From contig JAFTKO010000018.1 of NCBI GenBank assembly GCA_017453205.1, positions 1 to 36,048 on the forward strand: a stretch of 36,048 nt of DNA, given 5' to 3'. This DNA comes from Clostridia bacterium (GTDB lineage: Bacteria; Bacillota; Clostridia; Oscillospirales; CAG-272). Positions 34,406-36,048 of this stretch are shown in pieces; position 1 is the first letter of the stretch, and each line of letters starts with the position of its first letter. The notes under the pieces are model-generated. The model ran no database searches. It was not told the DNA's origin and saw only the letters and a program-made list of their open reading frames with translations. The position numbers and the translations under genes were made by a program.

Positions 34406-34816
34406 ATGTATTCTGAGCAAGACAGACGCGCTCCGATGCGCCGTTCCAACGATGAGTTTTTGCGGCGTATGATCGGAGGCGAATTGACCGGAGGTGAGAT
34501 GCCGGTCATGAATATGGAGCGCCCCTCACTGCCCGATTATTCGAGCAATCGCAAAGTCGATTGCGAGGGGAACATCGTGGGCGGCGAGTCCTCCTGCACG
34601 GAAAATCAAAATCACGGAAACGAAGCTTACACGGACGAGTGTCCCACACATGTCCATGCACCGGCGTTGGCGATGGTATATTCACCGCGGCAATGTTGGA
34701 GAAATGTGCTCGATCCTCAGTCGGGCTTGGAAAACGGCAGTATGTTTGCCGAGCTGATCCTCCCCTTTGAGGGGTGTGGAAAAAAAGTGGGAACGGAGGT
34801 CAAGACTCGCAGATAA
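34406..34816 (+). CDS. cotJA: Spore coat-associated protein CotJA-like
   Basis: 136 residues. The C-terminal part has the CotJA pattern ALAMVYSPRQCWRNVLDPQS then MFAELILPFEGC, matching the family's short conserved core. Typical CotJA is near 80 residues; here an N-terminal extension of about 60-80 polar residues (MYSEQDRRAPMRRSNDEFL onward) is added. AAGGAG is about 10 nt upstream. The gap of 13 nt to cotJB and the gene order JA-JB-JC support the call. It functions in spore coat or coat-associated catalase assembly in the mother cell. Confidence 0.85.
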   Translation: MYSEQDRRAPMRRSNDEFLRRMIGGELTGGEMPVMNMERPSLPDYSSNRKVDCEGNIVGGESSCTENQNHGNEAYTDECPTHVHAPALAMVYSPRQCWRNVLDPQSGLENGSMFAELILPFEGCGKKVGTEVKTRR

Positions 34817-34829
34817 AGCGGGAAAGCAT

Positions 34830-35207
34830 ATGATGAACAGACAGATGATAAACTATCAAATGAACCGTCAAATGAATCAGCAGATGAATCAACAGATGAA
34901 TCATTGGCAAATGAACGGGCAGATGAACCGTCAAATACGGTCGGACGGAAACCGCGGCGGTTGCCAAAAGGAGTTCAACATGCTTCGCGCGTTGGATTTT
35001 GCCATTCAAGAGACCGTTCTTTATTTGGACGCGTATCCCGAAAATCCGCAGGCGTTGGAATACTACCATCAGCTGCTGGAGCAACGAAACCAAACCATGG
35101 CGGCTTATGAAAAGAAGTGCGGACCTTTGAATATGTACGGAAATGCCAGCCGTACCTCGTGGGATTGGGTGGAAGGTCCCTGGCCGTGGGAACCCGAGGC
35201 AAACTGA
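34830..35207 (+). CDS. cotJB: Spore coat protein CotJB with Met/Gln/Asn repeat N-terminus
   Basis: 125 residues from ATG 34830; the next ATG at 34833 is equally possible. The C-terminal ~85 residues are the CotJB domain (LRALDFAIQETVLYLDAYPE, ALEYYHQLLEQRNQ, then CGPLNMYGNASRTSWDWVEG and PWPWE). The first ~35 residues are a tandem MNxQ repeat (MNRQMNQQMNQQMNHWQMNG), absent from ordinary CotJB. The upstream in-frame ATG at 34767 lies within cotJA and is not favoured. Ribosome binding site weak (GGAAAG). Confidence 0.88.
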   Translation: MMNRQMINYQMNRQMNQQMNQQMNHWQMNGQMNRQIRSDGNRGGCQKEFNMLRALDFAIQETVLYLDAYPENPQALEYYHQLLEQRNQTMAAYEKKCGPLNMYGNASRTSWDWVEGPWPWEPEAN

Positions 35208-35230: not shown

Positions 35231-35653
35231 ATGTGGACTTATGAGAAAAAACTGCAATATCCGGTTAAGATCAAAAATCCCAATCCCAAGCTGGCACAAA
35301 TCATCATCAGCCAATTGGGCGGCCCGGACGGGGAGATCGGAGCTTCGATGCGATATCTCAATCAGCGTTATTCCATGCCTTACGGACAGGTGACGGGAAT
35401 TTTGACGGATGTCGGGACCGAGGAGCTTGCCCATATGGAAATGGTCGCTGCCATCGTGCACCAACTGACGCGCAATCTTTCCGAGGAGGAGATCGCCAAC
35501 AGCCCCTTTGCCAACTATTTTGTGGACCATACCACGGGGGTTTATCCTGTTGCCGCCAGCGGTGTGCCTTATGACATGAAATATATCGCAGTCAAGGGCG
35601 ATGTCATTACCGATCTTCATGAGGACCTTGCAGCAGATGGCACGACCTTGTAA
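35231..35653 (+). pseudogene. cotJC: CotJC (manganese-catalase family), 3'-truncated at a mobile-element junction
   Basis: 140 residues where relatives have about 190. The N-terminal two-thirds is a good CotJC: MWTYEKKLQYPVKIKNPNPK, GGPDGEIGASMRYLNQRYSM with Glu35, GTEELAHMEM with Glu65 and His68, then VDHTTGVYPVAASGVPYD. It breaks off after KGDVITDLHEDLAADGTTL and a stop at 35651. Relatives then continue through the helices carrying the remaining Glu and His metal ligands, so this copy cannot complete the dimanganese site. GAAAGGAG precedes ATG. The truncation coincides with unrelated DNA that leads into a replication-initiator gene, pointing to an element inserted in the gene. Confidence 0.85.
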
Positions 35654-35834
35654 GAACAACCTTTGAAAACGAAATGCCGAAAACCCTTGATTTTATTGGA
35701 TTTTTTCGTTTTTGAAAGTAGTACAAGCCTTACCGCCCTGCATACATATAAGGACAACAAACGTCTAAAATCATCAAAAATAACAAGAAAGGTGATAAGG
35801 ACAAGCTGTTTCCTAAAAATCAAATAACACCGTA

Positions 35835-35882
35835 AAAGCGGCGTTCTTTCATTCCCTTATGGGAGATAGGACGCCGCTTTTT
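35835..35882 (+). terminator. Terminator upstream of the replication-initiator gene
   Basis: AAAGCGGCGT (35835-35844) pairs with ACGCCGCTTT (35871-35880), followed by TT for a run of five T. The 26-nt loop contains CTCCC/GGGAG-like pairing. It separates the element's gene from transcription coming out of the cotJ operon, or acts as an attenuator. Confidence 0.65.
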
Positions 35883-35905
35883 CTATTACAAAGGAGTGAT
35901 ACACA

Positions 35906-36048
35906 ATGGCAGTTTTTCGGGTGGAGCGAAACGCGGGATATACCGTTATGAGCAATCACCACCTACGAAACAAAGACTTGACCTTAAAGGCAAAGGGGCT
36001 GTTGTCGCAAATGCTCTCCCTACCCGAAGATTGGGACTTTACCCTTGC
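35906..36048 (+). CDS. Replication initiator / replisome-organiser N-terminal domain, partial
   Basis: ATG 35906, with AAGGAG 9 nt upstream, opens a frame running off the right edge. The 47 visible residues begin MAVFRVERNAGYTVMSNHHL, then RNKDLTLKAKGLLSQMLSLP and EDWDFTLA. This opening is characteristic of the winged-helix replication initiator proteins (RepA_N/replisome-organiser type) found near one end of Tn1549/CTn-like conjugative elements in gut Firmicutes. It would bind the element's origin. Its place right after a truncated cotJC supports an integrated element. Confidence 0.75.
   Translation, partial: MAVFRVERNAGYTVMSNHHLRNKDLTLKAKGLLSQMLSLPEDWDFTL

Follow-up and report, generated by a model that had tools for sequence, protein, structure and literature searches.

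Intervening elements in sporulation genes are known from several bacteria (the sources cited here and below are represented by excerpts). Among the closest is skin in sigK of Bacillus subtilis and C. difficile, which sits in a mother-cell sporulation gene, carries a serine recombinase inside it and leaves the gene precisely rejoined (PMC6957869). Comparable cases are gin in gerE of Bacillus cereus, with serine recombinases and no phage genes (PMC5595907), vfbin in spoVFB of B. weihenstephanensis (PMC10747680), and two sporulation genes split by excisable elements that bring a recombinase together with a recombination directionality factor (RDF) or a candidate for one, namely spsM with SP-beta (PMC4191935) and yabG of C. 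botulinum with yin (PMC10747680). The cyanobacterial nifD, fdxN and hupL elements are likewise excised in a terminal cell type (PMC6957869).

Here we describe a window of 36,048 nucleotides, the whole of contig C11 of a metagenome-assembled genome (MAG; 2.29 Mb, 73% complete). It probably contains the left junction of an element inserted at codon 136 of cotJC by a large serine recombinase (LSR) of a clade that we call LSR-B; the element would be skin-like and reversible, with an ICE/IME-type backbone, and would be excised in the mother cell.

The cotJ operon and the left junction in the window

The features of the window on which the argument draws are the following.

34406 to 34816, + strand: cotJA, first gene of the cotJ operon, an open frame (Pfam CotJA, E 3.5e-9)
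34830 to 35207, + strand: cotJB, an open frame (Pfam CotJB, E 1.6e-25)
35231 to 35635, + strand: 5' piece of cotJC, codons 1-135, with ligand positions E35, E65 and H68 present (Pfam Mn_catalase; 97% identity to genome G009)
35636 to 35637, + strand: predicted crossover dinucleotide GA at site B, the first two bases of codon 136, found in all 29 distinct left ends and the 24 right ends listed
35638 to 35660, + strand: putative element-side arm of attL, half of a 48-bp attP predicted from relatives (comparison of left ends)
35638 to 36048, + strand: left end of the element, truncated where the contig stops and homologous to other site-B left ends
35800 to 35813, + strand: GACAAGCTGTTTCC, with core CAAGCTGTT, which is found again within left ends of site B and ahead of some LSR-B genes
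35906 to 36048, + strand: beginning of a DUF6017/replication-initiator-like ORF that runs off the contig (91.5% identity over 47 amino acids to Enterococcus plasmid records)

The ORF at 35231-35653 (+) encodes 140 amino acids, of which residues 1-136 match Pfam Mn_catalase (E 3.7e-36); the unbroken CotJC proteins of relatives mostly have ∼198-212. Its codons 1-135 are CotJC, and the final five codons with the stop are element-derived, the first of the five being begun by GA. In an alignment with 1jku, CotJC residues E35, E65, H68, E136 and H169 fall (counted by hand) at positions 35, 66, 69, 148 and 181, which we take to be the Mn ligands. Because CotJC ends at codon 135, the piece in the window is without E136 and H169, in agreement with the preliminary description of this DNA, which had cotJC stop at residue 140 ahead of the last two metal ligands. 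The contig stops at 36048, 411 bp past the cotJC break, so that the far end of the element falls outside the window.

The position of the break is non-random, since the same dinucleotide stands at the break in 29/29 distinct left ends listed, the window included, all of which read ...GCN-GA-(T/G/C).... The 24 distinct right ends listed read ...C(A/G)-GA-(A/G)CA(A/G)AA(A/G)GC..., and from their shared GA core and the bases that follow it CotJC picks up at codon 136. This comparison took in matches of ≥ 50% identity and the left ends of pieces starting no further than codon 60; row L220 among the right ends was excluded because it is an assembly edge. In the relative G018 the element-side halves at left end L009 and right end L125 read GTTGC - 18 nt - GA - 18 nt - GCAAC, together a symmetric 48-bp attP, a size to be expected of serine integrases; this site-B attP was assigned by eye, and other ends match it less exactly. 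As judged from sequence, the junction in the window is the left attachment site (attL) of an LSR element.

Beyond the junction, the core CAAGCTGTT occurs within 350 nt in 13 of 27 site-B left ends, against an expectation of 0.015 for each, and upstream of 7 of 23 LSR-B genes. Upstream of some LSR-B genes (L155, L171) GACAAGCTGTTTCC surrounds the putative -10 as an inverted repeat; it also recurs near left ends and looks operator-like for a shared regulator. The 47 amino acids of the ORF from 35906 matched 20 plasmid records, of which 18 share 90-95% identity, 14 come from Enterococcus and some are annotated as DUF6017, and had no match in Pfam or NCBIfam; we assume that these DUF6017/rep-like proteins are Tn1549-type element proteins. 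With this assumption, the earlier observation that the DNA past cotJC leads to a conjugative-element replication initiator is borne out. A second rep-like ORF, 91% identical to that of the window over 47 amino acids, is located close to where a different contig of this MAG ends (G000:C10:49473-49615).

Elsewhere in the MAG assembly, no piece carrying cotJC codons 136-173 was found, and a search for an LSR-B gene gave only relatives of 27-35% identity, three lying where a contig begins (C9, C13, C35). One CotJC 3' piece is present, on contig C1, from codon ∼174. The arm upstream of this piece is similar to the one at a displaced 3' end in genome G026, and C1 is colinear with G026 from the displaced copy through deoR and the next gene; the 4.4 kb ahead of the C1 piece has no match to G026. 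G026 has an intact cotJC whose final 26 codons occur again 3.4 kb downstream, where they have a site-C-like right arm (L212:1508-1585); this duplicate resembles a scar left by an element since lost or replaced. We therefore do not take the C1 piece as proof of a second element: given the intact cotJC of G026 and its displaced copy colinear with C1, the piece may just as well be an old scar, the true 3' part being unassembled, as the distal flank of a second element located at site C. Synteny alone cannot settle this, because among four relatives showing both, deoR is downstream of cotJ in two (L046, L049) and upstream in two (L043, L047).

Split cotJC genes and their recombinases across the order

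Among 98 genomes, the window's own included, cotJC was split in 26, intact in 47, absent or represented only by a paralogue in 17, and unclear in eight (G004, G011, G031, G052, G058, G061, G075, G080), as read by hand from sequence-search results; G050 was counted as split despite also having an intact copy, and G091 as intact despite also having pieces. Every piece was found in 15 of the 26 split genomes and at least one was missing in the other 11, five of which are > 90% complete (G044, G048, G055, G057, G060). The breaks fall at four places, each of which coincides with a ligand motif or lies within a few codons of one: site 0 spans codons 30-32 (motif E35), site A codons 62-65 (E65/H68), site B codons 134-136 (E136) and site C codons 173-176 (H169).

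Relatives have separate in-frame 3' pieces that adjoin a recombinase gene. The preliminary description had proposed a skin-like reversible element, with the remaining codons of cotJC and a shared core at its far end and a recombinase gene beside one end. In relatives this picture stands, as site-specific breaks, in-frame 3' pieces, the shared core and, in many, a recombinase gene next to the 3' piece are all seen. For the window's own element it does not extend as far: its far end is unassembled, the piece from codon ∼174 may be a scar, and its MAG yielded no LSR-B gene.

A further 54 genomes were picked, from the best rows of a 395-genome search, for having no one-piece hit, and no prevalence is taken from that search. 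In several, three to five cotJC pieces follow one another in order along a single contig, for example four in G093 (sites A, B and C) and five in G263, where all four sites are occupied. Site A of G263 is flanked by a recombinase of clade A1 on one side and one of clade A2 on the other, and between them stands GGTACAGAAGA, followed by an A2-type left arm. In 71.5 kb this arm is the best place for each of four A2 left ends of other genomes (20-23 of 30 bases, against maxima of 17-20 in eight shuffles each). From this sequence we infer that site A holds a micro-piece of ∼11 bp, which would bring G263 to six pieces and five elements.

Because cotJC is also split in G349, G270 and G226, which are single-contig genomes, assembly is not a general cause of the splits. 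In addition to its split cotJC, G349 has another cotJC-like gene, which is partial and interrupted by an internal gap (G349:C1:1028281-1028531). Two genomes have pieces that simple excision would not join, on opposite strands and 108 kb apart in one (G042:C3) and 675 kb apart in the other, in an order not joinable by excision (G181:C1); this arrangement suggests later rearrangement.

The LSR genes lie inside the elements, in many near one end. In a tree of 41 LSRs, with site labels assigned by us from gene position, those of site B (20/20), site C (7/7) and site 0 (2/2) each form one clade, as do 5/6 rows of site A. A quick tree of 57 rows, built without bootstrap and labelled in the same way, divides site A into two clades, A1 and A2; five of its seven unlabelled rows fall in the clade of a site occupied in their genome, and two LSRs of the window's own genome, from contig C16, fall outside the clades. 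One LSR of each of the five clades, taken from relatives, was found to have Resolvase, Recombinase and zinc-ribbon domains (Pfam). LSR-B carries DUF4368 and has as its best PDB match TnpX (E 5e-13), of the TnpX/TndX family (Tn4451, Tn5397). In 21 intact-cotJC genomes searched at E 1e-40, no orthologue of the LSR-A2 of G349 was found, only relatives of 35-43% identity, which five of the 21 have elsewhere. By these comparisons cotJC is a gene-wide insertion hot spot, apparently with four places and five recombinase clades.

Small ORFs of ∼44-75 amino acids, alike within a clade by eye, stand just upstream of LSR-A1, B and C and are candidate RDF genes. A sigmaE/sigmaK-like -10 (CATA[CT]A[ACT]T) gave two scattered matches in 56 upstream regions (160 nt) of LSR genes, hence no signal. 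LSR relatedness correlates with host relatedness in Mantel tests at site 0 (r 0.69, 0/2000 permutations as high) and for A1 (r 0.39, 3/2000). Strict co-inheritance was rejected despite these values, since the closest relatives do not agree in several rows and LSR genes cross from one family to another; because LSR relatedness tracks the host only loosely, the elements are both inherited and exchanged.

The cargo of the elements varies. L155 encodes a MobQ relaxase together with replication ORFs that are DnaD/DnaC-like; the 3.2 kb of L160 include an LSR gene and one for a chemoreceptor. Among ten ORFs of two site-B elements, no phage structural families were found, and there was one borderline terminase match (E 6.9e-6). 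The site-C element of G093 (L206:1887-4613) includes a 908-amino-acid ORF like tetracycline ribosomal protection proteins (415 bits, curated cut-off 775) and two ORFs that look MATE-like by eye. Five site-B genomes have a second, diverged Mn-catalase gene, ∼35% identical to CotJC, 0.3-4.6 kb beyond the 5' piece on the opposite strand and apparently in the element; the window's genome has a diverged Mn-catalase gene on contig C16. The five loci are these.

L213:7500-8066, second Mn-catalase gene
L214:2460-2858, second Mn-catalase gene
L215:2297-2863, second Mn-catalase gene
L166:6757-7323, second Mn-catalase gene
L169:2416-2982, second Mn-catalase gene

Constraint on the pieces, proposed mechanism and rival explanations

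Selection on the pieces was assessed in eight genera with 19 split genes, all of whose pieces had been found, and 19 intact ones, with the cores masked; one genus (g38) contributed split genes only, and the loci fetched for G193 and G313 were left out. None of the 19 split genes had a stop codon. Pooled pN/pS was 0.114 for split/split (16 pairs), 0.146 for mixed (44) and 0.125 for intact/intact pairs (20); the comparison is tilted towards living pieces, because pieces decayed beyond similarity would be missed, and some G263 codons beside the breaks are element DNA and raise its pN. Pieces as short as 26-44 amino acids remain conserved. G072 and G194 have in common a site-A element, whose two copies align colinearly for ∼3.6 kb with 71-72% identity (76-82% in the flanks), and the cotJC pieces of the two genomes differ with pN 0.019 and pS 0.56 (pN/pS 0.034), which suggests that cotJC was constrained in both while split. 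Taken together, the split pieces appear to evolve like a working gene, which suggests that the inserts are removed again, perhaps at spore formation.

An insertion can also be recent, to judge by one pair of genomes. G349, with sites 0 and A occupied, differs after in silico rejoining from the intact cotJC of G409 by four synonymous differences in 591 bases; G409 had no LSR-A2 at E 1e-40. For these two sites, this carries out the comparison with an empty-site relative that had been suggested earlier, and the pair shows, at the level of the two sequences, that gain or loss of the elements is exact.

We propose that an LSR of clade LSR-B inserts an integrative element at codon 136 of cotJC. In relatives with the same junction the LSR gene is often at the far end, adjoining the cotJC 3' piece; an LSR gene and a far end are presumed for the window's element. 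Recombination of attL with attR would take the element out and regenerate an attP of ∼48 bp, leaving codon 136 and the reading frame exactly as in an unbroken gene. By analogy with skin in sigK, and with gin, yin and SP-beta, the elements would most likely be excised in the mother cell, where the coat Mn-catalase would thereby be restored, and would stay in the spore's genome. Excision would presumably involve an RDF, for which the small ORFs are candidates. The cotJ operon is expressed in the mother cell, and cotJC may tolerate elements because it is needed only there, during sporulation.

Simple inactivation is the main rival to this scheme, and a live one, because excision is itself a deduction, no sporulation promoter was seen and several split genomes have a missing piece. 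Here cotJC would be a mere conserved attB for ICE/IME-type elements, whose insertion inactivates the gene and which excise rarely, for transfer and outside sporulation. The MobQ relaxase and rep-like genes on the L155 backbone, the rep-like ORF in the window, the exchange of LSRs between families, the recent double insertion in G349, the lack of a sporulation-promoter signal across the 56 LSR upstream regions and the piece missing in 11/26 split genomes would all fit, as would the excerpted finding that other genes are LSR hot spots (PMC10083194). We nevertheless regard it as rather unlikely, since the pieces are under the same constraint as intact genes in eight genera, those flanking the element common to G072 and G194 have a pN/pS of 0.034, and even pieces of 26-44 amino acids are still conserved. 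That the fragments are made as separate polypeptides and assembled into a split catalase, with no DNA excision, is very improbable: the open frames of some 3' pieces (70-124 amino acids) do continue upstream of the junction, but a gene in up to five pieces plus a micro-piece of ∼11 bp, with pieces of 26-35 codons, argues against such assembly.

Little probability likewise attaches to an artefact of assembly or binning, the MAG being 73% complete. The contig end 411 bp past the break and the absence of codons 136-173 from the assembly would be expected of one, but the same junction recurs in the 29 distinct left ends listed, and splits lie within single contigs of G093 and of G349, G270 and G226 (one contig each). 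The preliminary description had also considered a Tn1549-like insertion. A Tn1549/Tn916-type element, placed by its own tyrosine integrase at a low-specificity site, would explain the rep-like ORF that is 91.5% identical to Enterococcus plasmid elements; given a fixed attachment site and arms common with LSR-B elements, in place of low site specificity, we abandon this mode of insertion as exceedingly improbable. Because the attachment site is of the LSR type, the Tn1549-like rep gene is better seen as cargo than as a sign of how the element inserted.

Beyond the skin-like, reversible element that we favour for the window, a broader and more tentative reading, on which we are about evenly divided, would make cotJC a DNA-spliced gene. 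Up to five independent elements, every one with its recombinase dedicated to a single ligand motif, would be removed in the dying mother cell from a gene in up to six pieces, one of ∼11 bp. Bacteria would then have an equivalent of the gene unscrambling of ciliates, which would have arisen through repeated ICE/IME-type capture. If the pieces are under selection at four places and with five clades, this would point to the terminal mother cell as a general refuge for mobile elements, conjugative-type ones included, and to developmental DNA excision as common in uncultured gut Clostridia. The five site-specific recombinase families are tied to inferable attachment sites, and the system is testable in cultured isolates with a split cotJC, such as Flintibacter muris DSM 110149 (site B), Pseudoflavonifractor sp. 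An184 and P. phocaeensis An858.

Comparison with known systems

The TnpX/TndX family is related to LSR-B in sequence, whereas all LSR-B elements examined here, which were found through cotJC, sit at one fixed cotJC site. The cyanobacterial elements belong to another organism and process, with, to our knowledge, one element per gene, and the XisF model matches the cotJC LSRs far below its cut-off. SP-beta and yin are prophages or prophage-like, whereas the few cotJC elements checked had no phage structural genes beyond the borderline terminase match. gin and vfbin differ in gene, host order and recombinases, and the cotJC elements include MobQ/rep-bearing and very small (∼3 kb) ones. We also considered phi027 of C. 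difficile as a precedent and set it aside, as in the excerpted account it adjoins a Mn-catalase gene that lies downstream of attR and is not split (PMC11222575). IME_Rho_tet elements use mainly MAFF2 genes, according to an excerpt (PMC12904643).

A literature search, which left preprints and most subscription papers outside it, found no report of an element inside cotJC, nor of one gene with several, and the words cotJC, spore and catalase are absent from the main text of a large LSR survey (PMC10083194). The timing of excision is established for skin and presumed for the cotJC elements. In the excerpted accounts of sporulation-gene intervening elements there is one per gene, skin included; cotJC, by contrast, offers four places to five LSR clades and holds up to four or five elements at once, and relative to those accounts both the several elements in one gene and cotJC as their host would be new.
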